The notes beneath the pieces were generated by a model, which had not been told where the DNA came from, did not search any database, and worked only from the letters and a program-made list of their open reading frames with translations. From Paraburkholderia phytofirmans PsJN (lineage in GTDB: Bacteria; Pseudomonadota; Gammaproteobacteria; Burkholderiales; Burkholderiaceae), in the NCBI RefSeq assembly GCF_000020125.1, contig NC_010679.1:1-64000 (forward strand): DNA of 64,000 nucleotides, written 5' to 3'. The first letter of the stretch is position 1, and every line of letters starts with the position of its first letter. Both the position numbers and the translations under genes were made by a program. Below, piece by piece: positions 10,322-27,215 of this stretch.

Positions 10322-10555
10322 CTAAATCTTCATGCAGGCGGCCCAAACCTGTACTGATCCGCCGTTACATCGAGCGTACCAGCCGCCATCATTTCCCCAA
10401 AAGCTCGATTCCAAATTGCCGCCTTGGCAAGCACCACCGCCCGCTACGACTTGCTGACCGGCGGGGCAGTATGCCTCTGCGCTATTCGACGCTCCCAGCA
10501 CGGTTGTGCCGCCAACGGTGATGGTTGGGGTAGGTGATTTCCACAGACCGGATTG
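10322..10555 (-). CDS. Silent PilV C-terminal segment D
   Basis: On the minus strand an open frame begins in the sfx4 remnant (CQSGLWKSPT...) and ends ...VWAACMKI at a TAG (10322-10324); too short and start-less for ordinary gene finding. It encodes about 77 residues with the same Cys-rich style as segments A-C, E and F. Confidence 0.75.
   Translation of the reverse strand, partial: QSGLWKSPTPTITVGGTTVLGASNSAEAYCPAGQQVVAGGGACQGGNLESSFWGNDGGWYARCNGGSVQVWAACMKI
10540..10555 (-). repeat. Left half of split shufflon site sfx4
   Basis: The arm TCCACAGACCGGA and first core bases TTG of an inverted sfx are present, then the sequence switches to histidine-kinase code (ACGAAGCGATC). The remaining core (GCAA) is found 16.4 kb away at 26945. 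Confidence 0.85.
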
Positions 10556-10998
10556 ACGAAGCGATCGCCGTCATCAGGCGCGATATTGAGCGCCAGAGTG
10601 GCGCGCTGACACGTCGTCTTGCCAGGAACCTGCCGCTGATACTGGGCGACCGTGTGCAGCTCCAGCAGGTACTCATCAACTTTATCATCAACGCTTTGCA
10701 GTCGATGGCGAGCGTCGACGGCAGGCGCGAACTCACTGTCCAGTCCCGCATGGACCCGGATGGCAACGTTGTAGTAGCAGTCAGGGACACGGGCACCGGC
10801 ATCCAGGAAGCCAATCTTCCACAACTCTTCGAACCATTCTTTACGACACGCAGTTCCGGCATGGGAATGGGGCTGGCCATTTCCAGTTCTATTGTCGAGG
10901 CCCATCGTGGCGAAATCTGGGCCTCCAACAACCCTGAAGGTGGGGCGACGTTCTCGTTCAGCCTCCCGCCAGCGGTAAAGGAGGAGGTGGGGATGTGA
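10556..10998 (+). pseudogene. 3' part of split PAS histidine kinase (HATPase domain)
   Basis: Encodes the end of the dimerisation region and the ATP-binding domain: N-box VLINFIINALQSM, G1 'VRDTGTGI', then GMGMGLAISSSIVEAHRGEI and a C-terminal GATFSFSLP. The start codon and phospho-acceptor half are at 25549-26944. In this arrangement it has no normal start (an in-frame ATT at 10534 lies in shufflon DNA). Confidence 0.85.
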
Positions 10999-11033
10999 CG
11001 CGCGGCGACAGCGTGCGCATGGTTAGGTTCACC

Positions 11034-11047
11034 TATACATTCGTACG
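11034..11047. promoter_or_regulatory. TATAC-N4-GTATA box 1
   Basis: TATACATTCGTACG, 68 bp before the receiver gene at 11115; one of six such boxes, all inside the inserted block. Confidence 0.5.
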
Positions 11048-11114
11048 ATGTCACCGAACGCCGTTGTGAAGTAATCTGCGAATCAGAAGAGACAGGCGGC
11101 ATCGACCACACGTC

Positions 11115-11516
11115 ATGCCGGGAGAGAATAGTCGAGGGGGCATTTTGCAAATTACGCCAATCGTTTCCATTGTCGACGACGATTCAGCCGTCCGTGTCGC
11201 GTTAGGCAGCCTTATCCGGTCGCTTGGCTGGCAGGTACGCATGTATGAATCGGCAGAGGCATTTCTTGCATCCGGACAGGTCGCCCAGACCTCCTGCCTG
11301 ATTTCCGACATCCGCATGCCCGGAATGTCGGGTATTGAAATGCATGAGCGCCTTCGTGCCCAGGGACATGCCCCGGTCACCATCTTTATCAGTGCCTACC
11401 CGACGCCGGCATTGCAGGCAAAAGCCGCGAGTAACGGCGCACTTGTGCTGCTGCAGAAGCCTTACCAGGCCACGGCAATGACTCACTGGCTCTCGGTCGC
11501 TCTGGGCAATCCCTAG
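11115..11516 (+). CDS. Single-domain response regulator (FixJ-type receiver)
   Basis: A 133-aa receiver domain without output domain: acidic pocket VDDDSA near 20, phospho-acceptor Asp in SDIRMPGMSG near 60, Lys in LLQKPY near 115. It follows the kinase 3' half by 117 bp, so in the ancestral circle it was the kinase's downstream partner. It is clearly paralogous to 22799-23239 (same SCLISDIRMPG.SGIEMH core). It probably passes or drains phosphate within the local FixJ-type network. A TTG at 11143 is an alternative start. Confidence 0.8.
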   Translation: MPGENSRGGILQITPIVSIVDDDSAVRVALGSLIRSLGWQVRMYESAEAFLASGQVAQTSCLISDIRMPGMSGIEMHERLRAQGHAPVTIFISAYPTPALQAKAASNGALVLLQKPYQATAMTHWLSVALGNP

Positions 11517-11725
11517 CGAATCAGCGAGGCCGTGCAGGCACCCTGCTCGTCGGCCGCTCGCCGCGCATCTTCAATGCCGCGGAGAAATAAAGCTTCAAAG
11601 ACGACAGACGGTAAAAAGTTATACCCATCGAAATAGATGCACTGCGCGGTCTCGGGACAGGTCCAATCTGGATAAAAACTATGGGTCGGAAATCGGTGGA
11701 TTTTAACAGTCCGACATTCACCCAC
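11513..11725 (-). CDS. Hypothetical 70-aa protein
   Basis: Frame on the minus strand with a GTG start, overlapping the end of the receiver gene by 4 bp. The sequence has a globular look (SFYPDWTCPETAQCIYFDGYNFLPSVVFEAL). It is vaguely reminiscent of DUF1488 proteins, which I cannot confirm. The rest of 11726-12037 holds no convincing gene, only the upstream region of the MarR gene. Confidence 0.35.
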   Translation of the reverse strand: MGECRTVKIHRFPTHSFYPDWTCPETAQCIYFDGYNFLPSVVFEALFLRGIEDARRAADEQGACTASLIR

Positions 11726-12012
11726 AGCTCGACCTGATGATTAACGGTTCAATCGCAATTGCTTTTGCGGCAAGAAGCACGGATACTCGTTGTCGAGCTT
11801 GGCTAAGTGGCCCTGCTGGAACACGAATCCTTTGCTGAGAGCGCAAACTGCGGCACGGAGATAGAATGCGTGAACCGAAGTGGGCGAAGCACACGTCCCG
11901 TTTCCCGACGAAAGAATGGCAGAATCGCATCATCGTAGACACGCTGACTTGCTTTGTTTAGGGTAGTCTTGAAACAATCATATTATTAATCCATTCAGAC
12001 CTAAGACCGGTT

Positions 12013-12036
12013 TGTTGAAAAATATTCAATCAATCC
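12013..12036. promoter_or_regulatory. Possible MarR operator
   Basis: TTGTTGAAAAATATTCAATC contains the inverted repeat TTGAA-N5-TTCAA immediately before the marR-like ATG at 12038; MarR proteins often repress from such AT-rich palindromes. Confidence 0.35.
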
Positions 12037-12037
12037 A

Positions 12038-12550
12038 ATGAAGAGCGAAGACGAAAATTTACCGCATAGCGAATTTCGACTGAAAGATTGGCGCAACGCA
12101 AGATTCGTTTTTTTGGGAAATAAGCTGACCCTGGCACTCGCGGAGATGTACGAAGCAGAATTTGATCTCTCACAAACAGAGTGGAGAATTATTGCTGCCG
12201 TGGCTGAGCATGCCCCCATGTCCGCCAAGGATCTTGCTGAATTTATTGTTATTGATATTTTTTCGATTACTCGGGCCACATCCGCTTTGGTAAAAAGAGG
12301 GCTTTTGACCCGGCGGGTAAACCAGCAAGATCGGCGAAAGATTGAGTTAAGGCTTTCCGCACGAGGGCGCAAAGTTTATGACCAGATAGTGCCCGTAGCG
12401 CTCGCAGTTGAGCGGGCTGTGTTCAGTGTCTTGTCGAAGAACGAATCAAATCAACTCGACCATATTCTTTTAAAACTAGAGGAGCATATCGGCCAGTTGC
12501 TCACACCTGATCGCTCATGGAAGTCGTTTGTGGCTGATCCGAAGTCTTAA
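12038..12550 (+). CDS. MarR-family transcriptional regulator
   Basis: A 170-aa winged-helix regulator. The recognition region is 'MSAKDLAEFIVIDIFSITRATSALVKRGLLTRR' (split here: MSAKDLAEF..., then SITRATSALVKRGLL), followed by the wing 'QDRRKIELRLSARGRK', both typical of MarR. It lies convergent to the oxygenase/reductase/transporter genes and is the best candidate for their substrate-responsive repressor. AT-rich relative to its surroundings. Confidence 0.8.
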   Translation: MKSEDENLPHSEFRLKDWRNARFVFLGNKLTLALAEMYEAEFDLSQTEWRIIAAVAEHAPMSAKDLAEFIVIDIFSITRATSALVKRGLLTRRVNQQDRRKIELRLSARGRKVYDQIVPVALAVERAVFSVLSKNESNQLDHILLKLEEHIGQLLTPDRSWKSFVADPKS

Positions 12551-12753
12551 CGGACACAGCGTGCCGATATTTTCAGTAACGGTGACTATTGGCATATATG
12601 TCCCCGAATCAGGCTACTGATGATATCAAGATGATTGCATTCAGCCCTATCTTTGGGATAGGGCATGCAGACCGCAGCGCTACATATCAAGTAAGTTGGC
12701 CCCCGCCGAGCCCATGAGGTGTTGCTGCGGCCTGCTGGTTTTCTGGCTTGCGA

Positions 12754-13758
12754 CTACATGTCTAAAGTAATTTCTTCAGATGCACTCCAGGAGACGCATG
12801 TACACATGTATTTTTGTGACTTCTTTTCCTCTTCCGATAAAAACATGTCGCGATGAAGCGGCGCGCCACTCATAACCGACACTGCACATATGCCACACTC
12901 GCCACGCTTGCACCCGTAAAGCGGATCGAGCCCATTGCGCACCATTGCATCGACTATAGTTTCTGGCTGCTCTACCACAATGGTCTTATTTCTCTTTGCA
13001 AAATGTACGGTCAACTTTGGGTTGGGAGCGCCTCGAATACCACCAAAGTTTTCAGATCGCACTGTGCCGCGATTCCATTGCTGCCGCTCACAGATTCGGG
13101 AAATAGCCCGGATGAAGGGCTCCGGACCGCACACGTAAATACGTTGCGCGTCCACCGGGTCGCGTAGCAGATTCTCGAAATCGTAATAGCGCTGCATCTG
13201 TCCGTTATCCGCGTGACACTCGACCTCGGCGAAGGCACTTTGCTTCAACCGCTCGAGAAGCGGAGCATCTTCCATATCGCGTACACAATAAATAACACGA
13301 TGCCTGATTTTCAATCTGGACAGTTGCGACGACAGCGAGTAAATCGGAGTAATGCCGATCCCGCCTGCTATGAGCAGGTGGCTGGTAGCGCTTGCGTCCA
13401 GTGAGAAACCGTTGACTGGCCTGCGCGCCTCCAATATTCCCCCCTCGGATACCGCGTCATGCAAATAGCGCGACCCGCCCCGCCCTGTCTCTTCCCGCTT
13501 GATCGCAATCTCAAACACCGAACGATCAGCTGGATTTCCAATCAGTGAATAGGCATTCCAGGCTTGCCGGCCATCGGGGAGTGTGACTTTGACCTCAATG
13601 TGTGCGCCCGCTTCATGCCGCGGAAGAATTCGACCATCCGTACTGCGCAGCCGCAATAGCTTCGTGTTGCAAGTCAACGAGACAACTTCGCTAACCGTAA
13701 GGTGCATCGTATCCGCGTCGACCTTGCTTTCGAATCCATTCATTGTTGATAGTGACAT
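12754..13758 (-). CDS. Phthalate dioxygenase reductase-like oxidoreductase
   Basis: A 334-aa electron-transfer partner for the upstream Rieske oxygenase: N-terminal FMN/FAD domain (NAYSLIGNP), NAD-binding domain (HLLIAGGIGITPIYSL), and a C-terminal plant-type [2Fe-2S] domain with Cys ligands in CKRGECGICAVS and a last Cys in YMCTC. This FMN-NAD-2Fe2S order is that of the phthalate dioxygenase reductase/VanB family. Start at ATG 13758 is chosen for the AGAGGAAAG site; the longer frame to 13902 overlaps the oxygenase gene. Confidence 0.82.
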   Translation of the reverse strand: MSLSTMNGFESKVDADTMHLTVSEVVSLTCNTKLLRLRSTDGRILPRHEAGAHIEVKVTLPDGRQAWNAYSLIGNPADRSVFEIAIKREETGRGGSRYLHDAVSEGGILEARRPVNGFSLDASATSHLLIAGGIGITPIYSLSSQLSRLKIRHRVIYCVRDMEDAPLLERLKQSAFAEVECHADNGQMQRYYDFENLLRDPVDAQRIYVCGPEPFIRAISRICERQQWNRGTVRSENFGGIRGAPNPKLTVHFAKRNKTIVVEQPETIVDAMVRNGLDPLYGCKRGECGICAVSVMSGAPLHRDMFLSEEEKKSQKYMCTCVSWSASEEITLDM

Positions 13759-13771
13759 GTTCTTTCCTCTT

Positions 13772-15064
13772 TCAACTTGCCTGTTTTTCAGTTCTCGTTT
13801 GAATACCGATGGTCTCGAGTACCCCAGGAACATGGTCAAAATCTGTCGGATCTTCATGCAAGCCCGAATAGCTCTGCACCTTATATATATCGCCGCCCGC
13901 ACTCGTGCGCGGCAACACGCCGTTCACCACTTCCCTGGCGGCGCGAAGCATGAGATTACGCATTGCCACAATCGAGGTGTCACTGGAGGCCAGGTGTTCG
14001 CGCGACCGATCCACAATAGGACCGCAACTTTCAGTTACCACCGCATCTTGCCCACGGACACCATGAATGCCTGTGAACGAAACCTCACGCTGGACGTTGC
14101 GGTCCAGCAGATAATCATTGCTCTTGTTCTCTACCGGTGTGGTCGTTCCTGGAATGACGCTACGATGGGCAACAACACCGTCTTTCCATAGGCCAAGTTC
14201 AGCGGCATCAGGTGGCCCATCTTTACGGTAGGTCACACATATCGACCAAAGGCTTTCATTGTCACGTGGAATCCACACGCGCCACACCCGTGAATTCTGA
14301 TCGTCACTGGGTGCGATCATGGTGTAAAAAGGCATCAAGAACAGATCTACACGCCAGAAAAATGGTTGGTCATTCTTTACGTGACGGCGTGCCCCGCAAG
14401 CAAGGCCAAAGTCGGTTTCCAGAATTTTCCAGCGCGGCGCCTGGCCCTCCTGGAAATATGAGCCGAACAGAGATTCCTTCGGTACTTGAGGATTGTCCAG
14501 GCGACGATGCAAAAAGGCGACGTGCGCTTCGTCGACTTCTCCCTCAAGCGCTTGCAGGAAGTTGCAGTCTTGCTGCCAACGCGACATATGTCGATGCGAT
14601 GCCGGATATTCCATCCACTCGAATCGCGGCAATTCAGGGGCAGGTGTTTCGCTGCCCATATATACCCACGCCAGGCCTGCAAATTCGCGTACTGGATAAG
14701 ACTTGATCTTCATGCATTCCCGGATAGTGCTTGAGGCCGGCTCAGACGGCATATCCACACAACTTCCATTGACGTCAAATTTCCAGCCGTGATAGATGCA
14801 CCGTATGCCATTTTCCTCATTGCGACCGTAAAACAGACTCGCGGCCCGATGCGGACAGAACTCGTCAATCATGCCCAGCTTGCCGTTACTGTCTCTGAAC
14901 ACAATCAAGTCTTCTCCCAGCAACTTGATACGCTGCGGTGGAGCGTCAGCCGCGGGGAGTTCGTGTTCGCAGAGAAATGGAATCCAATGGCTTCTGATCA
15001 TCTCTCCCATCGGACTATCCGCGTCCGTATTCGTAAGCAATGCATTCTCTTGTTGTGTAATCAC
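13772..15064 (-). CDS. Rieske aromatic ring-hydroxylating oxygenase, phthalate 4,5-dioxygenase-like
   Basis: A 430-aa oxygenase subunit. The Rieske [2Fe-2S] ligands are visible as CPHR (~70) and CIYHGW (~89). The mononuclear iron motif is DEAHVAFLH (~178), with a further acidic residue expected downstream. Overall layout (PMGEMIRSHWIPFL, LLGEDLIVFRD, 'DMPSEP') is the phthalate 4,5-dioxygenase type rather than the vanillate demethylase type. It is co-oriented with the reductase (13 bp) and the transporter (5 bp), forming an uptake-plus-oxidation operon. Exact substrate not inferable. Confidence 0.82.
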   Translation of the reverse strand: MITQQENALLTNTDADSPMGEMIRSHWIPFLCEHELPAADAPPQRIKLLGEDLIVFRDSNGKLGMIDEFCPHRAASLFYGRNEENGIRCIYHGWKFDVNGSCVDMPSEPASSTIRECMKIKSYPVREFAGLAWVYMGSETPAPELPRFEWMEYPASHRHMSRWQQDCNFLQALEGEVDEAHVAFLHRRLDNPQVPKESLFGSYFQEGQAPRWKILETDFGLACGARRHVKNDQPFFWRVDLFLMPFYTMIAPSDDQNSRVWRVWIPRDNESLWSICVTYRKDGPPDAAELGLWKDGVVAHRSVIPGTTTPVENKSNDYLLDRNVQREVSFTGIHGVRGQDAVVTESCGPIVDRSREHLASSDTSIVAMRNLMLRAAREVVNGVLPRTSAGGDIYKVQSYSGLHEDPTDFDHVPGVLETIGIQTRTEKQAS

Positions 15065-15069
15065 GGGAG

Positions 15070-16416
15070 TTACTCCTTACCTTGTTTGATGAGCCCACCA
15101 TCGTGGGAGATCGGATTTGATATTCCGGCGTCGGCAGACCGCCGGGACTCGTTCGTTTGAATCAGTCGGGAGAACTTCATCCTCGATTTCTCCGGGTTGA
15201 CCAGATAGAGGCCAATCAGTCCGGATAACACGAGCAGCGCTCCCAATAGCTCAAATCCATGCTCGAAACCCTTGGCAGGGTTGAGCGTGTCATTGATAAC
15301 GAAACCCATTACTGCGGGGGCCACCAGGCCGGCCACGGTGCCGATCGAGTTGTGTATCCCGAGCAGCGCCCCGCGTTGTCGCACGGATACGATCTCGCCC
15401 AGCATCAGCGGACCCAGCCACCCAATGAACTGAATCATCGCGCTGCCAGCAGCAAGGCACGCGACCTTCGCTCCCGGGCTCGCGATTGAGCCAATACCCC
15501 AGAAGATTGCCCCAGCCATGACAATCGCACCGCTAGCCAGTGCGCCTCTTGCCATCCTGGATGACATACCATTGGCCAGCAGCTTTTCGGAAACCCACGA
15601 CAGCGCAATCGCGACCGGAATCTGCGCCACCATGATCATCGAAAACAACCATCCCGCAGATGTCGCCGAATAGCCCAGGCCCATGCGCAGATAGGCTGGA
15701 ATCCACGTGAAGCAAAGCGCCACCACAGCGAATGCAGCGAACCACAAAATGAAATTGCCGATGACCGTGGGGTCGGTCAACAGCGTTCCGTAAGGCACGA
15801 CCTCTCGATCGTCCTGCTCCTGTGTTGCTCCCTTGACGTCGACCGTTCCTTCAGCACCCAGAAGCAACCACAGCACGACCCAGACGATGCCTATCACCCC
15901 AAGCGCGAGGAATGCCGAATGCCAACCGTAACGCACGATGAAGTACGTCAAGATCGGTCCGGCCAGCATCATGCCGGTAAAGGGTCCTTGAGCAATGATC
16001 GCGTTCGGAACACTACGCTCATGGTTATCGAACCATTTGTAGCAGGCATGTAACGCAACCGGATAGGCCGGCCCCTCCCCCACGCCAAGCAAGATCCGGC
16101 ACGCAATCAACATGGGCAGGCTTACGTTGCCGATCATGGGAAATTGCACGATGGCCCACGTAGTGGCCAGAAAGGCCAGGATCCAGCGTGTCTTCACGCG
16201 ATTGGCGACGAATCCGAATACGATCCCGGAAACGGAATACAACAGGAAGAAACTGCTGCCGATCAACCCAAACTGCCTGGGCGTCAGTGACATATCGTGC
16301 ATGAGGGACACGGCAACTAATCCGATGACTGCTTTGTCGGCATAGTTAATGACCATGAACAGGAACAACAGGGCCACGACGATCCAGGCCCGCCATTTAC
16401 CGTGAAATGAAAACAT
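15070..16416 (-). CDS. MFS transporter (anion:cation symporter-like)
   Basis: A 448-aa 12-helix major facilitator. Helix 1 ends MVINYADKAVIGL, as in the ACS (organic anion) family, and the helix 4-5 region has 'RILLGVGEGPAYPVALHA', typical of phthalate/galactonate transporters. As first gene of the operon it likely imports the aromatic acid oxidised by the downstream oxygenase. Confidence 0.8.
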   Translation of the reverse strand: MFSFHGKWRAWIVVALLFLFMVINYADKAVIGLVAVSLMHDMSLTPRQFGLIGSSFFLLYSVSGIVFGFVANRVKTRWILAFLATTWAIVQFPMIGNVSLPMLIACRILLGVGEGPAYPVALHACYKWFDNHERSVPNAIIAQGPFTGMMLAGPILTYFIVRYGWHSAFLALGVIGIVWVVLWLLLGAEGTVDVKGATQEQDDREVVPYGTLLTDPTVIGNFILWFAAFAVVALCFTWIPAYLRMGLGYSATSAGWLFSMIMVAQIPVAIALSWVSEKLLANGMSSRMARGALASGAIVMAGAIFWGIGSIASPGAKVACLAAGSAMIQFIGWLGPLMLGEIVSVRQRGALLGIHNSIGTVAGLVAPAVMGFVINDTLNPAKGFEHGFELLGALLVLSGLIGLYLVNPEKSRMKFSRLIQTNESRRSADAGISNPISHDGGLIKQGKE

Positions 16417-17006
16417 GTCTCCGCCTATTATTTATATGAATACGACAATTCAATCGCTCGAAATCACGTAGCTTTTTTATTATTTAGACCAATAGCCCAA
16501 GCGGTACGCTCTACCTCGTCAGGCTGCATTGCTAATAAAGCGAAATGCCAATTCCGTCGAACACCGACAGGCCACGGCGCGGCCCACGTATGGACCAAAC
16601 TCACAAGCCATCAGACAAAATTTCGTTCTCTGAAAAGTTCCATCCCGTCTCGTTCCCAGCGCGAGCAACGAGCCGATTGATCAGCACCCGTCTCCAGGGC
16701 ACGTGATCACCATCATATGAGCAAATTTCAATTATTGCAAATTGCAAATTGCAATTAATTGACGTCGATGGCGCGCTCGCGACATGGAGGCGACCCGCAG
16801 CACGGGCGTGGCGCCGCGCCGCCTGATCAGACCGGGTGCATCAATGAATAAGGAGGGAGGGCGCTACGCGCCCGACATGACGTATTCGCAAGCCTTTGCC
16901 GGACGCCCCTCGGGGTTAGGGGACAACTTTCCAGATAGAAGTTTGCGCTTGAAAAACCGGGCAGATCTGCACGGGTTGTGCCACTGAAAGTGATCGACCT
17001 ACGCGC
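16417..17006. promoter_or_regulatory. Operon upstream region with TTGCAA repeats; no gene seen
   Basis: About 590 bp between the MFS start and the broken LysR gene. At 16733-16758 ATTGCAA is repeated three times in tandem followed by TTAATTGA; such repeats suit a MarR or LysR operator. The 67-codon frame at 16784-16987 has no recognisable features and is not called. Confidence 0.4.
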
Positions 17007-17494
17007 TCAATACCCGGTTCGCCGGAGTAATCGAATCAGGTTCAGGAAACCCGGCAGACTCGAATTTTGCTCATTCTTCCGGTACACGCAGTACACGCTG
17101 CTAGTGGGCTTCGGCTTGAGTGCTTTCACGAAGGCGACCCCCGGTAGATGAATACTCATAGCCGAAATTGGTACGAGTGCCAGACCAATCCCGGCGGAGA
17201 CAAGGGTCAGACAGGCCATCAAATCTTCGGTTTCCTTGACAACATTGGGGGTAAAGCCTGCCTCTTCGCAAAACCGTAGCACCTCGTCTGCGAAGCTCGG
17301 TCGTGACATACCAGGGAAAACCACCATGGGTTCATCGCGCAATGCAGCGATTGGCAAGCTGCTTCGTCTGGCAAGCGGATGCGATGACGCAACGGCGAGG
17401 ACGACCGGTTCGCGAACCACTTCTTCGCACTCGATGTCCGGTTCGTTGCGGTATTGCCTGGCGAAACCAATGTCGAGCCACCCGTCACGGAGTG
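17007..17494 (-). pseudogene. LysR-type regulator, C-terminal fragment cut by IS
   Basis: About 160 residues of a LysR substrate-binding domain ('LRDGWLDIGFARQY', 'VLAVASSHPLARR', 'DLMACLTLVSAGIGLALVP'). The N-terminal HTH part is missing: the frame runs straight into the IS end at 17495, and the other IS flank is a different gene. It was presumably a regulator of the aromatic operon before the rearrangement. Confidence 0.8.
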
Positions 17495-17589
17495 TGAGCG
17501 TGAGCACGTAAATCGATGGGGCAATGAGCAACATAAATGATGTTCGAGGGACGAAGTAAAACGGGAGCGATGAAGCTCCCGTTGTCGTT

Positions 17590-17805
17590 TCAGAATGGCT
17601 CGTCAATGCTCTGGTGTGGCGGCTGTGTCGGACCGCGGTACCAGGGCTCGCGATAGCGGCGGATCTGGGTGGCGTAGGCGCGGCTGAACCACAGATAGAG
17701 GTCTTCGATGAAGAACTGCATCATGTAGGCTGCCTCGTCGGAGAGCTCGGGCAATGGCAAGCTCCGGGAGGCGTTGGGTTTGTGAGGTGATGCTTTACGG
17801 GACAT
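17590..17805 (-). CDS. Small IS accessory protein
   Basis: A 71-aa protein beginning MSRKASPHK, starting just beyond the ATPase stop and preceded by GGAG. The middle (EAAYMMQFFIEDLYLWFSRAYATQIRRY) is helical. Role in transposition unknown; it is co-directional with the rest of the IS. Confidence 0.5.
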   Translation of the reverse strand: MSRKASPHKPNASRSLPLPELSDEAAYMMQFFIEDLYLWFSRAYATQIRRYREPWYRGPTQPPHQSIDEPF

Positions 17806-17806
17806 G

Positions 17807-18664
17807 TCATCGGGCTCCGTTGGGTTGACGCGCTGGCGTGCGGCGCGAGGACTGTGTTGATGGTGCAAAGACCTCGAAGTACAGCTTCTCGTCGAGTTCG
17901 GACAGTTCCCGCTGCGCGGCGGTGGTGAGCAGTTCGTTGGCGAGCGTGGTGAGCACGCGGTAGTTGCCCAGCGCGTGTTCGCACAGCGTGTGGCGCAGCG
18001 GCGGTGTCATCAGCTGCGGGGCGCCGGCGCTGGCGAGCAGATGTTCGAGGCAGGCCAGCAGGTCGTCGGCCGAAGCCTTCTCGGTCCCCAGGCGGGAACG
18101 GATACGGCTGCCCAGTGGCAGCAGTTCGTCGCGCCGCAGCTTGTCGGTCAGGCGCGTGTCGCCGGCGAGCACCACGCACAGCAGGGGCTGCGAATCGAAG
18201 CGGGCGCTGGCCATGAGCCGCAGTTCGTTGAGCACGCCGGGACTCATTTCCTGCGCTTCGTCGATCAGCAGGATTGGGCGCCGGCGCGTGCTTTGCAGGT
18301 GCGACATCCACCGGTCGCGCAGCGACCTGAAGCCGCCCCAGCGGTTGTGCGGCCGGAGTTCCAGACCGAAGATGTCGCCCATCTCGCGATAGAAGTCGGC
18401 AAGGTTGCTCTGCGGATGATTGATCGAGACGACTGTCAGATCGGTCAGTCGCTCGAGCTTCTCGGCCAGCACGCGCATGACCACGCTCTTGCCGGTCCCC
18501 GGCTCGCCGTGGATCATCGCGAAGCCGCCTTCGCGCACGAGCGCGTTCTCGATGCGCCAGCAGAAGTTCTCGACGCGCGGCGGCACGTACAGCGCTTCGA
18601 GGGGAAGCTCCGGCGAGAACGGGTTCCACTTCAGGCCGTAGAGGGCTTGCAGACGCTGGCTCAT
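17807..18664 (-). CDS. IS AAA ATPase (TniB/ExeA-like)
   Basis: A 285-aa ATPase with Walker A GEPGTGKS near 54, Walker B '[11 protein letters not shown]' near 133 and a sensor region [19 protein letters not shown]. It belongs to the TniB/MuB/ExeA group that selects targets for DDE transposases. Its ATG overlaps the transposase stop (ATGA), so the two are translationally coupled. Confidence 0.85.
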
Positions 18665-20097
18665 GCCTCCTCCTGCCAGTTGGCGGGAATCCAGGCTGGC
18701 GGCAACCCGGTTGCGGCGTGGTCGGCCAGCATCTGGCGTAGCAGCGGCGCGATGCCGGGCGCACTGGCCGGTGGCGGCTCGACATTGACGGCATCGAGTC
18801 GCCTGCGCTGGCCATCAGCATTGGCGGCCTTGTCCAGCGGCCGCAGCGGGCACAGCACGGCGCCGCTGCCGGCGTCGACGAGATCGACGCCGCTCAGGTC
18901 CCAGCGCGCATAGCGCAGGTGCACGCGCTGCAGGTGCCGGTAGGCCGAGGGAATCTCGAAGCGCGTGCCGGCCAGACTCACGGTGCCATCCGAGCGCCGC
19001 TGGGCGCGCGTCACGTCGATACGGAATGCGGCGCGCAGCGCGTCACTCGACGGGCATTCGCGGCCCACATCGGGGCCGGCCAGATAGCGTTTGAGCGGCG
19101 TGCCACCGATCTCAGAATGATGCGCGTGGTGGTACTCGCGCTCGATCCACGCGTGGGTGGCCTGATTGAGCAGTTCGAGCGTGAGATTGGGCTCGCCTTC
19201 GAGCATGGCCATCACGCGCCCTTCGATGCGGGCCCAGAACGTTTCCTGCTTCGCGTTCTGGTACGGCGAATATGGCAAGGTCGTCTGGTGCAGCACGCCG
19301 AGCGCGAGCAAGCCGGCGGTCGTCTCCTCGGCAAGCATTGCTGCGCCGTTGTCGGTCATCAGTGCGCGAGGCCGGCCACGACGCTGGAGCGCCTGGGTGA
19401 GCCCATGGATCAGACTACGTGCGGTCTCATCGAGAAACCATTGCGCGTGACAGACGACGCGCGAACGGTCATCGAGCACGCACAGCAGCATCGGCGTGAT
19501 CCACTGGCCATCATGCGTGAGCAGCTTGCGCGAGCCGTGATGGAAATCGAGATGCCAGAGCGCGTTGACGTGCTCGACCTCGAAGCTGCGGACCTCGAGC
19601 TTCTCGAGGCGATCGCGTGCGAGCATCGCGCCGGCGCTGGTATGACGCGGCTTGCGTTCACGGGACAGGCCCTGCGCACGCAGATAACGACGCACCGTCG
19701 TGTACGACGGCAGGTTCGCCGGGCCGAGCGTGACCTTGAGATTGTCGACGTGCAACTGGCAGGTCCAGCCGGGATGTTCCCGGTACTGCGCGCGAATCGC
19801 CTGTACCGCCTGAGGCGACAGGCTTGCGCCGGCGCCGCTGGGGCGCTTGCGGTCGCGCAGGCTCGCCACCGGATCGTGGGCCGCCTTGCGGGCCCGGTAG
19901 AACCACCGCTCAACGGTGGAGCGGCCGAACTGGACATCGTCGCCAGTGACGGGATGACGCCAGCGTTTGGCGGCCAGCGCGGTGATGAGTTCGCGCACCT
20001 GCCCGGGTTCAGGCGGTGCTGCCAGCAAGGGGCCCACAACCGCAAAGCGCAGGCGCGCCCAACGATCCCGCAGGGGTAAATCGTGAAGTTCAGTCAT
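18661..20097 (-). CDS. DDE transposase of the Mu/Tn7-like ATPase-assisted type
   Basis: A 478-aa rve-type transposase. An N-terminal HTH region (to ~150) is followed by the catalytic core: first Asp in [11 protein letters not shown], second in [11 protein letters not shown], and Glu in [17 protein letters not shown], with a C-terminal beta-barrel (Mu C-like). Start at 20097 is taken for the GGAGAG site; an upstream in-frame ATG at 20121 is possible. Confidence 0.85.
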
Positions 20098-20195
20098 GCT
20101 CTCTCCAGGGATGCGGCGCACCGCGCCGCGATTCGGGGGAGAGGCGAGACTACCGGCGCAGTCCGAGGGGGGCGAGCGACAAGTTCTGCGGGCGG

Positions 20196-20774
20196 TTACC
20201 GTCCCTCACGCAGGGTGCTCACGGCGCTGCCGCTGGTGAGCGGTGAGAGCCAGCGCAGCAGGCATGGCAATGGCTCGGCAGGCTGCGTGGTAGCGAAGCG
20301 CTCGAGCAGGCTTGCCGGCACCTGTGCGGTCTCGACGGGCGGCACGAACGCCGCCCGTCCGAGCGCCCAGAACGGTGTGCCGACAAACCCGGTCATCCAC
20401 CAGTGCCGCCATCGCGCGATCGTCGAGGGTGGCACGCCCAGCGCATCGAGCTGGCGCATTGCCGCGGCCGTACCGGCGCTCGCACGCGTGGCGCTGACGA
20501 CAATCATGATTGCGGCGGTGTAGACGCGCCGGCCGAGAAAGCGCACCGAGAATGGCGTGGTACGACGGCGACAGTCGGCGCAGCAGAAGCTGTAGCGGAA
20601 CTCGCAGTGGCAGCGGGCTTCGTATGAAATTCCGCGCGGCTTGCGCGGGTAGCGGGCGCTATGGAGTACGCCACCGCAGCGACAACGCTGCGCGCGGGTC
20701 TGTTCGGCGAAGTCCTGATCGATACGTAACAGCAGGTGATAGAAGTTGGGATCGCGGGCACTCACGTGGCACAC
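20196..20774 (-). CDS. IS-encoded zinc-ribbon protein
   Basis: A 192-aa protein with paired Cys motifs CRCGG, 'CHCEF' and CCADCRRR, then an HTH-like segment (LDALGVPPSTIARWRHWW). It is the first gene of the IS operon. The pattern suggests a DNA-binding accessory factor; I do not recognise a named family. Confidence 0.6.
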   Translation of the reverse strand: MCHVSARDPNFYHLLLRIDQDFAEQTRAQRCRCGGVLHSARYPRKPRGISYEARCHCEFRYSFCCADCRRRTTPFSVRFLGRRVYTAAIMIVVSATRASAGTAAAMRQLDALGVPPSTIARWRHWWMTGFVGTPFWALGRAAFVPPVETAQVPASLLERFATTQPAEPLPCLLRWLSPLTSGSAVSTLREGR

Positions 20775-20917
20775 TCTGGAAGTCTCGGTTCTTGGCAGAC
20801 ACGAGACTCTCCCTTGGGCGTCGTTTGTGCAAGATGCCTGAGGGAGACCCCCACCGCTACATCACGCAAGCTGCTCAAAACGCCCCGAATTCCCATCGAT
20901 TTACGTGCTCACGCTCA

Positions 20918-21293
20918 GAATATGCACTTGCGTGATCAAGCCGAGCCCGGACTCACGCTGCCCGCCGACCGATGAGAGCGCCGCAATCCGCGCCGGCTGT
21001 GCCCGGGTCAGTGCCTCTTTCAACACCGCTACCGCAGCGTGCGCATTCGGATAACCCGGGGACGGCGCGAAGTTCGGCGCCACCATGACAAAGACACCCG
21101 CCGTACCGCTGAACGCTGCGGCAAGGGCGTCCGCGTCGTCGAACGACGCGATCGCCACTTCGGCGCCCCGCTTCGTCCATTCCGCCGCCTTGCTTTCGTC
21201 GCGTAAAACAGCGCGCACGGCATGCCCGGCTTTCAATAATGCGCGTGCCGCCGCGCCACCCACCTGCCCTGTCACACCGGTAATTGCATACAT
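20918..21293 (-). pseudogene. NmrA-like NAD(P)-binding protein, N-terminal fragment
   Basis: The frame starts MYAITGVTGQVGGAAARAL, a Rossmann GxxGxxG motif of atypical SDR/NmrA proteins, and runs 125 codons to GLGLITQVHIL, where the IS end cuts it. The rest of the gene is absent from the other IS flank. Confidence 0.8.
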
Positions 21294-21419
21294 GCTGGTT
21301 GCTCCGAGAATACGGCCATCGCCGCGTTAAGCGACATTCTCGGCGCGGCGAAGTAATTTCACGAGAGCATGGATGTCATTAAATTAATGACCTTTAAGCA
21401 TTTATAATTTTGACACGTT

Positions 21420-21433
21420 TATACCTCCGTATA
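21420..21433. promoter_or_regulatory. TATAC-N4-GTATA box 2
   Basis: Perfect TATACCTCCGTATA, about 165 bp before the gene at 21599, followed by a ~100-bp leader that is duplicated after box 5. Confidence 0.55.
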
Positions 21434-21598
21434 AGCCGCTTACGCTAACGCGGCATCGGTATATCCCACCGTAGAGTAGATTCGCGCTTCGGCAAAACCT
21501 ACTCTTGTCTCATTCCGGCAGAAGCAGCGAGCAGGTTGTTGCCCGGAACAAAGCGAGACCCGGCTATCGCGCAAACCCGGTTGCGGCAGGAGAACCCC

Positions 21599-22021
21599 AT
21601 GACCCTCGAATTTCTAAGCCAGCAAGTCATTTTTGACAAGGCGGCCCAGCATCTTTTCCGGCAGCTCGGGGCATCGCTCCTGCCGCGCGGTGGCGGCGCA
21701 TATCGCGGTTACTGCGGCGGGTGCCCTGTCGGCAATTTCATCAAGCCACGTGACTACCTGAGCGCAATGGAAGGGGTTCCCATTCGCTATATCAGCAAGC
21801 AGACGAATGAAGTGCCGGCCTATATGGATGTGGGTGTCGCCGCGCTGAGAAGAGCGCTATTGCGTGCGAAGATCAACGTCTACGACCCGCAGACGGTCAA
21901 TCTGCTGAGCTGCCTGCAAAATGTACACGACGTCTTCGGCGTCGCGGAATGGGGCGACAGGCTGCAATCGATTGCGCGCGAATTCGGCCTCAACGCCGAC
22001 ATCCTGACGGAAACTGCATGA
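21599..22021 (+). CDS. Hypothetical 140-aa protein under box 2
   Basis: Starts at the ATG after GCAGGAGAACCCC. The sequence has a Gly/Cys cluster (GAYRGYCGGCPVGNF), no signal peptide and no membrane segment. The C-terminal part (NLLSCLQNVHDVFGVAEWGDRL) is helical. Its promoter region shares the TATAC box with the neighbouring two-component genes, so it is likely one of their targets. Confidence 0.6.
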   Translation: MTLEFLSQQVIFDKAAQHLFRQLGASLLPRGGGAYRGYCGGCPVGNFIKPRDYLSAMEGVPIRYISKQTNEVPAYMDVGVAALRRALLRAKINVYDPQTVNLLSCLQNVHDVFGVAEWGDRLQSIAREFGLNADILTETA

Positions 22022-22169
22022 GGCGGCTATACCGATGAGGTCGGCGAGCGCCAGCGCTGGCGGATAAAGGCGACCTGCTGCGGGTCTCCTGCAGCGGTCA
22101 ATCGGATAGAGCGACAACAGTCTGAAACCGGTTGATAAGTTCAGGCCTGGTTCACACCATTCACACTCG

Positions 22170-22385
22170 TTAGTGGTTCAGACAGAAGCACGCGCTCACC
22201 GCTTCGGCAGGCGACAAGCCTGTGTGGAAGTAAGCCTCCAATCGCCGGACAATCGCATCGTCGGGTTCCCAGGGTACATGAATGAGGCCATCTCCTACGG
22301 CTTTTTCATACACGGCATTTGCCCACGTACACAGGTCGAGTTCGCACGAAGACGACAGTGCTATCGAATCGGACTGGATGAACAT
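22170..22385 (-). CDS. Hypothetical 71-aa protein
   Basis: Starts at ATG 22385 behind a good TGGAGG site; soluble, acidic, with an amphipathic middle (NAVYEKAVGDGLIHVPWEPDDAIVRRLEAYF written here in part: NAVYEKAVGD, DDAIVRRLEAYF). Second in a minus-strand pair with the mini membrane protein at 22567. Function unknown. Confidence 0.5.
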   Translation of the reverse strand: MFIQSDSIALSSSCELDLCTWANAVYEKAVGDGLIHVPWEPDDAIVRRLEAYFHTGLSPAEAVSACFCLNH

Positions 22386-22471
22386 GACAACCTCCACAAC
22401 ATCGAAAATGTACGTGGTCACATCACGCGGATGCGGATAACGGTCGCAGACAGATACGGTATGTCTTCGTT

Positions 22472-22567
22472 TTAACGATCGGGACAGGCTGTGGTCTTGT
22501 TCATCGCGACAAGCAGTGTCGCCACGACGGCAAGAAAGCCGGACATGTAGATAAGCACGATGGTCAT
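22472..22567 (-). CDS. Mini membrane protein, 31 aa
   Basis: ATG at 22567 follows AAGGAGA; the product is a single hydrophobic helix (IVLIYMSGFLAVVATLLVAM) with a short polar tail ending CPDR. Box 3 lies about 190 bp upstream. Likely a stress-type small membrane protein. Confidence 0.45.
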   Translation of the reverse strand: MTIVLIYMSGFLAVVATLLVAMNKTTACPDR

Positions 22568-22758
22568 CGGCTGCTCTCCTTCGGAAATGCCGCAATGGCA
22601 CTGGCCACCACCGGCTGACAGTAAGGACCGCAATTGCAGGCACGGTCCTGTCAGGCGCATTGCGTTTGCGCATTGGCCTTGAAAACACTGTACAGATTCG
22701 GGGGACGAGAAACCATTCTACGAACGGTTCGAGCGCCAGCGCATTGGGATAGGGACGT

Positions 22759-22772
22759 TATACCCGCGTATA
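22759..22772. promoter_or_regulatory. TATAC-N4-GTATA box 3
   Basis: Perfect TATACCCGCGTATA, upstream of the small minus-strand genes ending at 22170. Confidence 0.55.
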
Positions 22773-22798
22773 ACTCGCGCCGGCGAACCGGCCGCGCG

Positions 22799-23239
22799 CT
22801 ATGGCCCATCCAGCGCGAGATCGAGCAGGCGCTCGACAGTCCTGGCATCAACAGGCTTCTTGAGGAAAGGGGGGGCACCTCTGGCCCGGATTTGGGCCTC
22901 GAGGGCAGCAGTCGGGAATCCCGTGGTGAAAATGATCGGAATCGCGTACCCGAGAGCCAGCAGGCGGTCGTGCATTTCGATTCCCGACAGGCCCGGCATC
23001 CGTATATCCGAAATCAGACATGACGTCGCCTCGATTAAACCTGACTCCAGAAATTCCTCCGCCGAGGAAAACACGCGTACCTGCCTCCCCAGCGAACGAA
23101 CCAGACTTGCGGTCGCCACCCGGACACCCTCATCGTCATCGACGATGGAAATGAATTGAGAAGACACAAGCGACGGGCCTCGGCAGACTGGAAGCGAAGC
23201 GTGCCAGACAGATCCGTATGGCATGCCACTCGAATTCAT
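22799..23239 (-). CDS. Single-domain response regulator (FixJ-type receiver)
   Basis: A 146-aa receiver: ISIVDDDEGV, phospho-acceptor Asp in ISDIRMPGLSG, Lys in FLKKPV. No output domain. It is a close paralog of the receiver at 11115-11516. Box 4 lies about 30 bp upstream. The start is uncertain: the AAGGAG lies 16 nt from ATG 23239, and ATG 23224 is an alternative. Confidence 0.78.
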   Translation of the reverse strand: MNSSGMPYGSVWHASLPVCRGPSLVSSQFISIVDDDEGVRVATASLVRSLGRQVRVFSSAEEFLESGLIEATSCLISDIRMPGLSGIEMHDRLLALGYAIPIIFTTGFPTAALEAQIRARGAPPFLKKPVDARTVERLLDLALDGP

Positions 23240-23267
23240 CGTAGATGGGAAATCTCCTTACGGAAAT

Positions 23268-23281
23268 GATACGAATGTATA
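23268..23281. promoter_or_regulatory. TATAC-N4-GTATA box 4
   Basis: GATACGAATGTATA, i.e. TATACATTCGTATC on the minus strand, just before the receiver gene read leftward. Confidence 0.5.
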
Positions 23282-23628
23282 AGCGTTTCATGAGCGGCTT
23301 ACCTTTCTGCAGGCACAATCGCTGAGCCTTCGACGAAGCACCTGTCCGCGAAGATTCATTCAATGATCTGACAATTCGCTCGAATGTTGCGTCACCTGCA
23401 CGTTGCATTCCCCTGTTGAATGGAGCCCCAGCCGCATGAAGCGGGGCTCAATTAAAGTAACGCGTGATGATTCGCAAAGATTTACAATTAGATTACGCGA
23501 CTGCCAAATGAAGTGCGGAACATCGGCAAATTGATGAACGCAAGACAAGGCGACATTGGGAGGCGGCAATCGCCGGGATTCGCCGGAATTCGCGAGATGT
23601 CCAGTTGACTACTAGACCGACCCGCCAA

Positions 23629-24282
23629 ATGATGAACGAGTCCAAAGCAAGCGAAGGTTCCGTCGTCTACGTTGTCGACGACGACGATGGCGTCCGGCGG
23701 GCCCTTGACCTGCTTTTGCGTTCCGTAGGCCTGCGCGTCGAGACGTTCGGGTCCCCGGACGAATTTCTCCAGTCCCCTCACTCCGCTGGCCCAAGCTGCC
23801 TCATCCTCGACGTGCGGCTGCGTGGAAAAAGCGGCATGGCGTTTCATCAGGAAATCGTCAATAGTGGCATGCTCATTCCCGTCGTGTTCATGACCGGTCA
23901 TGGCGACATCGAGATGGGCGTGAAGGCAATGAAGGCAGGCGCGCTCGATTTCCTGGCGAAACCGTTCAAAGACCAGGACATGCTCGACGCAGTGGCTCAG
24001 GCATTAGCGCAGGACAGCGGGCGGCTCGCCGCAGAAGCGGCTTTGACCGGTCTGCGCGCTTCATACGAGTGCCTTTCGCCGCGCGAGAAAGAGGTGATGG
24101 GCTTTGTCCTGTCCGGCCTGCTGAACAAGCAGATTGCCTCTGCGATGAACCTGAGTGAGATCACAGTCAAGGTCCACCGTGCACAGGTGATGCGAAAAAT
24201 GAACGCACGCTCGATGCCGGACCTGGTCCGCAAGGCCGAGTCGCTGGGTATCAAACCCTGCATTCCCGACGGCCGTCATTGA
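23629..24282 (+). CDS. FixJ/NarL-type response regulator with HTH output
   Basis: A 217-aa regulator: receiver domain with VDDDDGVRR, Asp in LILDVRLRGKSG and Lys in FLAKPFKDQD, then a LuxR/FixJ HTH (LSPREKEVMGFVLSGLLNKQ, 'SEITVKVHRAQVMRKM'). It is the only DNA-binding regulator among the local two-component proteins, so it is the best candidate to bind the TATAC-N4-GTATA boxes. Start ambiguous: ATG 23629 or 23632, or TTG 23605. Confidence 0.85.
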   Translation: MMNESKASEGSVVYVVDDDDGVRRALDLLLRSVGLRVETFGSPDEFLQSPHSAGPSCLILDVRLRGKSGMAFHQEIVNSGMLIPVVFMTGHGDIEMGVKAMKAGALDFLAKPFKDQDMLDAVAQALAQDSGRLAAEAALTGLRASYECLSPREKEVMGFVLSGLLNKQIASAMNLSEITVKVHRAQVMRKMNARSMPDLVRKAESLGIKPCIPDGRH

Positions 24283-24338
24283 CGAGTACCGATCTTCCAG
24301 AAGCGTCATGGCGCTTGCCGCTCTGGTTGCCTCGTGCT

Positions 24339-24352
24339 TATACATTCGTATA
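24339..24352. promoter_or_regulatory. TATAC-N4-GTATA box 5 with duplicated leader
   Basis: Perfect TATACATTCGTATA. The following ~100 bp matches that after box 2 (TACGCTAA, GCGGCAT, ATATCC and AGAGTAGA in the same order and spacing). No convincing gene follows in 24353-24689; three overlapping frames there have no recognisable features. Confidence 0.55.
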
Positions 24353-24689
24353 GGCCGGGTACGCTAATGCGGCATTCGCATATCCAGACGCAGAGTAGAC
24401 TCGCCCGCCCGCTAATCCTACCCTTCTCTTATCGCGACACGCTCGCGATCAATACGGTGCAAAGCTCGCGGTTTGGCCCGACCACATGGCACTTCCGGAT
24501 GGCTGTCCGACCGGTTCGTTTCTCAACGTGTCCAAGGATCATCGTGTCACATGTTCTACGCAACTGGATTCACATCGGAAGCAATGCCTATACCGAGTAC
24601 ACGTTCGTGCCGTGGCTTGGCAGGAGTATCTATCGCCGCACGGTGGACTTCGCCACCATCTGCATGCAATAGCTGAGAGACGGAAACCG

Positions 24690-24830
24690 TCAACCAAAAC
24701 GGCTGACGGAATGGAAAGTACCATATCGGCAGATTGCAATCGCTTCTGCGTCAAACTGCGAAGCGGCCAGTGCGAACCCAATCGACCAACGGCCGAAGAC
24801 ATCGCGATAACGAATCGAATAGGTAAACAT
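24690..24830 (-). CDS. Hypothetical 46-aa protein
   Basis: ATG at 24830 after GAGAGAGG. Short aromatic-rich sequence (MFTYSIRYRDVFGRWSIGF) with a compact end; unknown function, probably part of the stress-type regulon with the neighbouring zinc-ribbon gene. Confidence 0.4.
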   Translation of the reverse strand: MFTYSIRYRDVFGRWSIGFALAASQFDAEAIAICRYGTFHSVSRFG

Positions 24831-24936
24831 GGCAACCTCTCTCTTCCTGAGTAGCGGGTCCATTCGCCATTGACAGCGACCGCGGCGCCCTTCGTCATGG
24901 ACGTCAAAACGGTCATCTCTCTCCGGCCATTGCTGG

Positions 24937-25128
24937 CTACTCGCAGACTGCAAATCCCTTGCATTCCGTGGTCTTTTCGGTGAAGCACATCGCACAGCAG
25001 ACAGCGGTAATATTCGGCCAAAGGCTCACGCGCTTCTGAACGTCCTCCTTCAACTCACCGCATTCATCGCAGCGATCCAATACACGGACCTGCAACGATC
25101 GTTTATGCCATTTCTCCAATGCGCTCAT
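24937..25128 (-). CDS. Small Cys-rich (zinc-ribbon-like) protein, 63 aa
   Basis: ATG at 25128 after CGGAGTC. Contains CDECGE near the middle and CCAMC plus a later Cys, a likely zinc-binding knuckle. Box 6 lies about 195 bp upstream and is shared with the divergent kinase gene. Confidence 0.5.
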   Translation of the reverse strand: MSALEKWHKRSLQVRVLDRCDECGELKEDVQKRVSLWPNITAVCCAMCFTEKTTECKGFAVCE

Positions 25129-25326
25129 GTCATGACTCCGTGAGTTGATCTGCAACGGTGAACTCGTCGTACGCGTTGCTACCCGATAGGAACCCGGTTA
25201 TGCAGCACGTTTGATATCGCGAACATCAAAATGAAAATGCCAGTCCATGAACTCAGGATAGGCTCGCGATTCCAGGAAAACTATCCTACGAATGGTCGCT
25301 GCAGTTCTACGTGAACATAATCCACT

Positions 25327-25340
25327 TATACATTCGGATA
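25327..25340. promoter_or_regulatory. TATAC-N4-GTATA box 6
   Basis: TATACATTCGGATA between the divergent zinc-ribbon gene and the kinase 5' part. Confidence 0.45.
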
Positions 25341-25548
25341 CCTCGAATCATCCTGAACGCCAGTGTTCAAGTCCTGGCGAGAGCCGAAGACTAGCTGGCG
25401 CATTTCCCCGAACAGTCTGGAAACGAGCGTGATTAAAGCCACCAAGGGACTAGAATGAAAACTGGATAGAAAAAGAAGCCGGAAACATCCACTATTGTCG
25501 CGAGACCGCTGCAAGCGGCTACGCGGCGGCGCCAAAGGGAGATATTCT

Positions 25549-26944
25549 GTGCGCGCGACAGTTTCTTCACATGAAAGCAAGAGCTGGCGGTACCTCGCGA
25601 CATTGTGGACTGGAGGCTGCATCGCGCTCGGAGCCGTTACCGCAGCCTGTGTCCTGTGGGACCAGGAACTGGGCACTGCCGGCTTCTGTCTTCTCGTTGT
25701 CGTTGTTCTTCTGTCGCTGCTGGACAACTTCATTTCATCCGCGCTTTTCTCGGTCATTGGCGCGATGCTCCTCGGGTATTTTTTCACGGAACCGGTCCAT
25801 AGCATCCACGTTAGCAAACCCCGGGATTTATTCTCCCTGCTTGCCTTTCTCGTCACGTCGATCGCAATTACTACCTTTGTCAGGCGAATTCGTCGCGTGG
25901 AGAAAACGCAGCGCGCTCAGGCGCAGTTGCTGGAACTGACTCACGACATCATCATCGTACGCGATAAGGACGACGTGATTACGTACTGGAATCAGGCGGC
26001 GGAAATACTCTATGGATGGACCAAGGAAGAGGCGATTGGCGAGTTCATCGACGAACTTCTGAGTTCGGTGTTCCCCCTGCCCCGTGACCAGCTCCAGCGG
26101 ATTTTTCATCGCGACGGTCAGTGGGAGGGCGAGCTGATTCACACGAGGCGGGATGGCACCAAAATAATCGTGACGAGCCGTTGGGCACTACAGCGCGACA
26201 GCGCGGGCAATCCCTTAGCCACACTTGAGACCAATAATGACATCACGCAGCGCAGGCACGCCGAGGACCTGCTGCGAAAGAGTCAGGCGCAATATTTCGC
26301 CGAAGCGCAGAAACTGAGCAGGACCGGAAGCTTTGGATGGAACATTTCGAGCGGCGAACTCTTCTGGTCCGACGAGACTTTTTCCATCTTCGAATACGAC
26401 TTGGCCGTCGCGCCCAACATCGAGTTGGTCCGGCAGCGCGTATATCCAGACGATCTCCCCCTGTTCGACGAGAAGATTGCAAGGGCGCGTGGTTTCACTG
26501 TCGACTTTGACATCGAGCATCGTCTGCTTTTTCCTGATGGACGCATCAAGCACCTCCATGTGGTGGGCAGGTCAGCGAGCGGTCAGCCGGATAACCGGGC
26601 GTTCATCGGAGCGGTAATGGACGTGACCGGCGCGAAACAAACGGAGGAGCAGTTACGGCATACGCAAAGCGAACTTGAACGCGTAAGCCGGATAACGGCG
26701 CTGGGCGAGCTGAGTGCGTCAATTGCTCACGAAGTAGGACAGCCCCTCGCCGCCATCGTCACGAGCGGTGAAGCATGTCTGCGCTGGCTGCATCGCCAGC
26801 CACCGAACATGGAAGAAATAGAGGGTTGCGTGAGTCACATGACAGACCAGGGCAATCGCGCCGCAGCGATCGTGCAACGTGTGCGGGCACTCATGAAGGG
26901 GGCGCCGCCGGACCGGGCACCAATCGCAATCAACGACGTGATTG
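25549..26944 (+). pseudogene. 5' part of split PAS histidine kinase
   Basis: Starts at GTG after AAGGGAG. Four membrane helices (DUF4118-like) to about residue 110, then two PAS domains (~125-245 and ~255-370), a coiled linker and the HisKA H-box SIAHEVGQPLAAI. At 26944 the frame leaves kinase sequence (…AINDVI, then shufflon code) and reaches a foreign stop at 27171. The ATP-binding half is at 10556-10998. Without it the product cannot autophosphorylate. Confidence 0.87.
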
Positions 26945-26948
26945 GCAA
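26942..26948 (-). repeat. Right half of split shufflon site sfx4
   Basis: TTGGCAA core of the inverted sfx, with the arm replaced by kinase sequence (AACGACGTGA). It joins the 10540-10555 half when the insert is removed. Confidence 0.8.
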
Positions 26949-26953
26949 GGCGA

Positions 26954-27215
26954 TCAATTCACACACGTCACCCAAAAATCAACGTCGGCATTACCGTTCC
27001 AAATCTGGCTCGTGGCATTCCAATCGTACTGCCCGTTTCCATTCGGGCCAGCAGCGGGCCATACGTGATTTATGCCGCCCTCCGGGTATCCAGAAGATCC
27101 CGCCACGAAGCAGAACGAGTGCCATCCCAAATCCGGCGATGTCGATTGGGACACGTCATACAAGGCGCTGATGCTCATCGGGGAACCGGCCGCCTTCCAG
27201 ACACCGGATTGGCAA
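26954..27215 (-). CDS. Silent PilV C-terminal segment E
   Basis: Minus-strand frame from sfx5 (CQSGVWKAAGSPM...) to ...WVTCVN and a TGA at 26954. About 88 residues, no start codon of its own, same style as the other cassettes. Confidence 0.8.
27196..27215 (-). repeat. Shufflon site sfx5
   Basis: Inverted sfx, TTGCCAATCCGGTGTCTGGA on the minus strand. Confidence 0.85.

Follow-up and report, generated by a model that had tools for sequence, protein, structure and literature searches.

A split shufflon site in Paraburkholderia phytofirmans PsJN reads as a precise integration scar, likely made by the Rci recombinase

The shufflon of R64 and other IncI plasmids is rearranged by Rci at sfx sites, which are described as having a 12-7-12 anatomy (PMC11852207). 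Rci is in turn presented as the closest characterised relative of the dusA-associated integrases (PMC4482086). Islands of the latter are described there as sitting in a gene and excising as circles, and these enzymes are said to have a dedicated target gene and a C-terminus shorter than that of Rci; here, the partner would be a chance site in a kinase gene. The subject of this study is a 64,000-nucleotide stretch from Paraburkholderia phytofirmans PsJN, called the window, which comprises bases 1-64000 of the 121,122-bp contig C2 (NC_010679.1) in an 8.2-Mb genome of three contigs. In this window, a PilV shufflon with six tips has its fourth sfx site (sfx4) split at 10555/26944. Like the R64/IncI system, the locus combines a pil operon, pilV tips, asymmetric sfx sites with a 7-bp core and a 12-bp right arm, and a neighbouring full-length relative of Rci. 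Unlike the R64/IncI enzyme, which is described as only inverting, its recombinase is associated with an integration-type scar through a partner that is not sfx.

Secondary-site integration, in which an enzyme recombines its own site with an imperfect match that occurs by chance, is known from lambda Int and from the quasi-sites of Cin and Hin. The join proposed here is of the same kind, the difference being that the enzyme is a shufflon recombinase. A second useful comparison is with F-prime plasmids, which carry DNA that once lay on either side of the plasmid's insertion point and are closed by recombination between copies of an insertion sequence (IS); here, in contrast, entry would have been through sfx by Rci and not through IS homology. 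Among the matches listed from titles and abstract openings in the open-licence literature, we found no report of Rci joining sfx to a non-sfx partner.

The halves of sfx4 lie at the two ends of the insert as hybrid sites, J1 and J2 (Table 1). Read on the sfx strand, J1 (10541-10571) consists of a left arm and core (TCGTCAA) from the kinase gene and then the sfx right arm, and J2 (26930-26960) of the left arm and core (TTGCCAA) of sfx and then the right arm from the kinase. The two joints are reciprocal, with zero bases gained or lost, and they bear out the preliminary description of an inverted sfx cut inside its core. The two core bases that differ travelled with the left arms, which places the exchange within CAATC (core positions 5-7 and right-arm positions 1-2). 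Both joints carry the register and polarity of one site-specific crossover in this common CAATC, at the edge between core and right arm. Rci cuts at the ends of the sfx core, and CAATC is where an exchange at that edge would be expected to fall.

The partner in this exchange is a histidine kinase gene. The insert begins with the 3' part of the gene and ends with its 5' part; together, the 1396 and 443 nt make 613 codons, stop included. In eight relatives (G148, G124, G009, G099, P. xenovorans LB400, Caballeronia sp. dw_19, Paraburkholderia sp. UYCP14C and a Caballeronia metagenome-assembled genome, L025), the two parts align side by side to one gene. The preliminary description had taken the halves for a single gene of 613 codons, had suggested looking for the intact gene in related genomes and had named an origin in two different genes as the finding that would overturn it; the alignments in eight relatives, with both parts adjoining, establish one gene. 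Judged from alignment coordinates, the break (26944/10555) falls on the same base in seven of the eight. The alignments of G148 and G124 reach the break, and for the other five the coordinates were extended over ~90-120 unaligned bases; in L025, the break is off by 2 in a gapped alignment. Loci matching only the 5' part (seven: L004-L007, L021, L026, L037) or only the 3' part (three: L036, L038, L039) were left uncounted; most of them are short stretches, and the comparison covered alignments longer than 150 bases. The host genome yielded no second copy of the 3' part (33 of 33 candidates scored) or of the 5' part (best 6 of 53 candidates scored; best 2 of 38 in a further kinase search). The same split outside a shufflon was absent from the loci looked at, no search having been aimed at such splits.

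The pentamer GATTG is present at both joints, as it would be if the 16.4 kb were a transposon that had entered sfx4 with a 5-bp target duplication. However, GATTG is the kinase's own sequence, because G148 and G009 carry it in the intact gene (at the break, G148 reads GATCGAGGAGGCGAT and G009 reads GATTGACGAAGTGAT; G009 has GATTGACGAA there), and the continuity of the kinase across the insert ends in relatives excludes transposition of the insert as a whole. By eye, the insert ends (10556 and 26944) share only ACG as an inverted repeat. The sole recognised transposase inside the insert belongs to an element with its own terminal repeats, and no other recombinase or integrase was found among the insert's open reading frames (ORFs) that were scanned, which were not all of them. 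A transposon origin is hardly credible on this evidence.

A history of inversions alone, acting on kinase DNA already on the plasmid, would call only on the known reaction of Rci. A single inversion between sfx4 and the kinase would, however, leave the halves opposed, whereas here they share one orientation in a permuted order, and serial inversions would need extra exchanges at sites that left no trace. We rejected an inversion-only history because of the shared orientation of the kinase halves, and give it next to no weight. Undoing one integration restores both parents while undoing one inversion restores neither, which argues for integration over a single inversion.

We consider it probable that a circle carrying the kinase gene, either of 16.4 kb or a larger replicon that was later trimmed, was joined into sfx4 by Rci in one conservative crossover with an sfx-like sequence in the kinase. 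The rci gene lies 524 bp from the sfx4 break. Its 380-aa product contains the motifs R (AMRQGE), HxxR (HDLR), H (SGHK) and Y (KRYTH), to which we assign the putative catalytic residues. It is 49.1% identical over 97% to the gene annotated rci in LC567064.1; a tblastn search matched 2670 plasmid records, 2205 of them covering at least 80% of the query, and the matches to plasmid genes run to residue 379 or 380, so that the extended C-terminus of Rci is present. Given the edge of an sfx core as the place and an acting enzyme encoded this close by, Rci is the likely agent, and if Rci made the scar at 10555/26944, the scar reads as an integration. Bound at the real right arm of sfx4, Rci would have tolerated a weak partner site. 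The joints, with their register and polarity, lend support to the earlier proposal that a circle or trimmed replicon entered through a pseudo-sfx; the part played by Rci is what we infer from this setting. We regard the scar in this shufflon as a real and precise trace of integration, probably the work of Rci and thus a form of secondary-site recombination.

Resemblance between the kinase site and sfx is modest. The site is identical to sfx4 at 18 of 31 bases, including the left-arm GATCGC, a score reached by 1 of 165 other CAATC places in the window (shufflon masked) and by 19 of 124,418 places overall. A match of 12 of 16 positions had been given for the kinase joint against the sfx flank; counted on the letters, GATTGACGAAGCGATC and GATTGGCAAGGCGATC agree at 13 of 16. 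The strength of the case lies in position, register and polarity, and the match to the consensus is not relied on. Only five consecutive bases are identical at the crossover, and this, with the modest match beyond them, is what would be expected if two circles had recombined at the common GATTG by an illegitimate or short-homology route without Rci. Against this, on a contig of 121 kb chance would have had to strike one of six sfx sites, and within it the few bases where core and right arm meet, while also placing the partner in sfx register and polarity and costing no base; five identical bases in a row also make homologous recombination implausible as the agent. We consider an origin without Rci unlikely.

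An uninterrupted counterpart of sfx4, which the preliminary description had proposed to look for, is found in another Paraburkholderia (G105). The halves of its intact orthologous sfx (L110:233-250) match the two sfx4 halves that are read apart in the window. Alignment with 26945-27215 (74%) starts from the first base past the break, and tip E, the neighbour of the site here too, shows 78% identity over 86 residues; no counterpart of tip D was found in G105. Judging from these alignments, the uninterrupted state of sfx4 exists, though the tip on its other side differs.

Shufflons are hard to assemble and are reported to misassemble, once with non-shufflon sequence in place of a segment (PMC5430464). 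Two contigs of relatives (L110:1 and L111:1) start inside an sfx repeat, and our analysis rests on the assembled sequence and not on reads. Even so, the parents have 5 consecutive identical bases, far too few for an assembler to join them, and a base-exact reciprocal split at a recombinase site is unlike a chimera. An assembly artefact is, in our estimation, very improbable.

Several points weigh against integration by Rci. The R64 enzyme is described as inversion-only, and the asymmetry of sfx has been proposed as the cause (PMC11852207). Integration is excision run backwards, and Rci does not carry out excision. PMC11852207 also reports that excisions, too, arise when sfx sites are made artificially symmetric, and that deletions are seen in eukaryotes, from which it follows that the chemistry of integration is possible. 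When compared with the 16 fixed positions of the sfx consensus, the kinase site agrees at 11 (6 of 9 right-arm and 5 of 7 core bases), and as many are matched by 17 of 32,742 insert places and by 6 of 165 other CAATC places. The joint inside the insert, discussed below, calls for two IS copies, which are postulated. Two further IS copies in the host genome (C1:2738403 and C1:2872379) lack a duplication and are unlinked to the insert, and no pair matching a reciprocal IS scar occurs among the six host copies. Finally, ten other loci that encode a relative of Rci gave no clear example of a split sfx, which is a weak test.

These ten loci comprise three from the genus and seven from the 2670 plasmid records. 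The plasmid stretches extended at most 8 kb from rci, L110, L111, L112 and L160 are cut by the end of a contig or record, and places with 3 mismatches, the number that J2 also shows, were left out of the check; they are present in eight of the ten. At least two sfx sites occur in eight loci, one in L112, and one with 2 mismatches in L160. Across 399 genomes of the order, the exact sfx pattern matched 7 genomes but formed a cluster in the host genome only; the other six hold 8 scattered exact matches (three in G352), and a reversed control pattern gave none. Within ~1.5 kb of the 8 scattered matches there was no Rci match and no second site at 2 or fewer mismatches, with one at 3. The capture through sfx is a single case so far. 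As the contigs of L110 and L111 start in an sfx repeat, draft assemblies can be broken at such repeats, and similar captures could be missed. A stretch of a Burkholderia contaminans plasmid (L165) has related pilus genes, no annotated recombinase and an sfx-like place (7489) with 2 mismatches at the end of pilV.

What the insert carries bears on how a circle could have formed. Its left part encodes a response regulator, a MarR regulator, a ferredoxin reductase, a LigXa-like Rieske oxygenase, an MFS transporter and a LysR remnant, and its right part an NmrA remnant and two-component regulators. In our view this cargo resembles chromosomal DNA for two-component regulation and aromatic metabolism. 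General scans of the insert ORFs recognised no resistance or virulence genes, no dedicated search having been made, and no replication gene was recognised among the ORFs scanned, again a subset of them. Among the matches listed from 144 genomes of the genus, the best for a contiguous source of the left cargo were partial and 65-71% identical. Five relatives (G132, G110, G019, G104 and G148) are collinear with the right cargo (22171-24673), except that ~6 kb of theirs is absent from the insert between 23296 and 23390; in four of them, this ~6 kb includes a short stretch matching the 5' part of the kinase (26626-26789).

Between the two cargo parts lies an IS whose integrase-core protein is nearest to IS481 models, below the cut-off, and whose ATPase likewise falls below the cut-off. 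Each side of it is occupied by a truncated gene. The LysR_substrate match begins at profile position 51 of 209, with the remaining frame inside the IS, and a homologue of the NmrA remnant in G151 has an open frame of 319 residues. No close second copy of the LysR and NmrA remnants was found in the host genome as a possible donor (28 of 28 candidates scored in one search; best 40 of 80 in another, with two weak partial matches of 65% and 85%). In relatives, by eye, direct duplications of 4-7 bp flank five of six distinct complete copies of the IS (L119, L120, L121, L129 and L130); the sixth, from P. phymatum (L116/L122), has none, and seven further rows without an end or flank were left unjudged. 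The left end of the P. phymatum copy also occurs a second time, 111 bp farther out (L116:2396 and 2507). In the host genome, a direct duplication was seen by eye at three of six copies (C1:1348461, C3:111539, with only 4 bp, and C3:145029). Its absence from the other three, the copy in the insert included, suggests IS-driven deletions or rearrangements here. Full-length alignment of two chromosomal copies with the window copy gave 100% identity, which indicates that the IS was recently active in this host and favours trimming in this lineage.

As read from its flanks, the IS with its two truncated genes carries the signature of recombination between two copies of the element, or of a deletion on the side of an IS, and it is likely the joint where the circle closed or the co-integrate was trimmed. 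The variant in which a whole replicon was trimmed by IS deletion, raised in the preliminary description, gains support from the missing duplication and from the genes cut short to its left and right. Two copies of the IS, by recombining, would have closed a circle or cut an F-prime-like plasmid from a co-integrate. Events could have followed three orders: a 16.4-kb circle closed before integration, a larger co-integrate trimmed afterwards, or an F-prime-like release from a chromosome where Rci had put the plasmid. Compared with an F-prime, the order of the kinase halves fits; the insert has an IS without duplication and two truncated genes, and the parental chromosome was not found.

On contig C2, pilus genes (with T2SSE, T2SSF and PilS matches) are followed by pilV, the shufflon and rci. 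The window holds five perfect sfx sites and the two hybrids (10541, 2 mismatches; 26930, 3 mismatches). These seven matches at 3 or fewer mismatches compare with 0.53 expected, and seven were reached in 0 of 100 shuffles; multiple repeats in both orientations behind pilV are the arrangement of a shufflon. All six PilV tips open from sfx sites, with CQSGVW in tips A, B, C, E and F and RQSGLW in D, the tip at the hybrid site (10541-10559). The conserved Cys of CQSGVW is encoded by the sfx core, and the kinase core at 10541-10559 gives Arg in tip D. Farther along the window, two adjoining ORFs of 627 residues each (54268-56151 and 56148-58031) have no Pfam match at E 0.01.

Table 1. Features of the shufflon, the split site and the insert, in window coordinates
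Feature	Position	Strand	Remarks
pilS	7782-8426		adjoins pilV upstream; PilS PF08805, E 8.5e-6
pilV constant part and tip A	8499..9779	+	no Pfam match
sfx1	9530..9548	+	perfect copy
sfx2	9806..9824	+	perfect copy
sfx3	10051..10069	+	perfect copy
Hybrid site J1	10541..10559	-	sfx4 right arm; core and left arm from kinase
Insert, putatively captured	10556..26944	none	16,389 bp
Histidine kinase, 3' part	10556-10998	+	443 nt; HATPase_c
Response regulator	11115..11516	+	PF00072; adjoins kinase in relatives too
LysR gene remnant	17007..17494	-	N-terminal part missing, cut by IS; LysR_substrate match
IS	17495-20917	-	26-bp perfect terminal repeats; no target duplication
NmrA-like gene remnant	20918..21293	-	C-terminal part missing, cut by IS
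Histidine kinase, 5' part	25549-26944	+	1396 nt; GTG start; HisKA
Hybrid site J2	26930..26948	-	sfx4 left arm and core; right arm from kinase
sfx5	27197..27215	-	perfect copy
sfx6	27441..27459	-	perfect copy
rci, shufflon tyrosine recombinase	27468..28610	-	PF00589, E 1.9e-24

With sfx1-3 and sfx5-6 still facing one another, the insert is predicted to flip now within a shufflon segment. Recombination at the two hybrid sites is expected to be poor, and this may keep the insert in place. On our best reading, this locus records integration through a secondary site by a shufflon recombinase regarded as inversion-only. It is tempting, though tentative, to go further and see shufflons as gene-capture devices, in which Rci would join a pilus plasmid to a chromosomal pseudo-sfx, an IS would release an F-prime-like plasmid, and the captured genes could be both flipped and conjugated.

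Rci is the model of an inversion-only tyrosine recombinase, and its use as a tool in synthetic biology rests on the view that it neither excises nor inserts. A scar of natural integration at sfx would mean that the inversion-only limit leaks in nature. The site sfx4 and the kinase site form a defined pair with which the leak of Rci could be measured, and the predicted route of capture is testable in E. coli. Integration at sfx would give shufflon plasmids one way to gain chromosomal genes.

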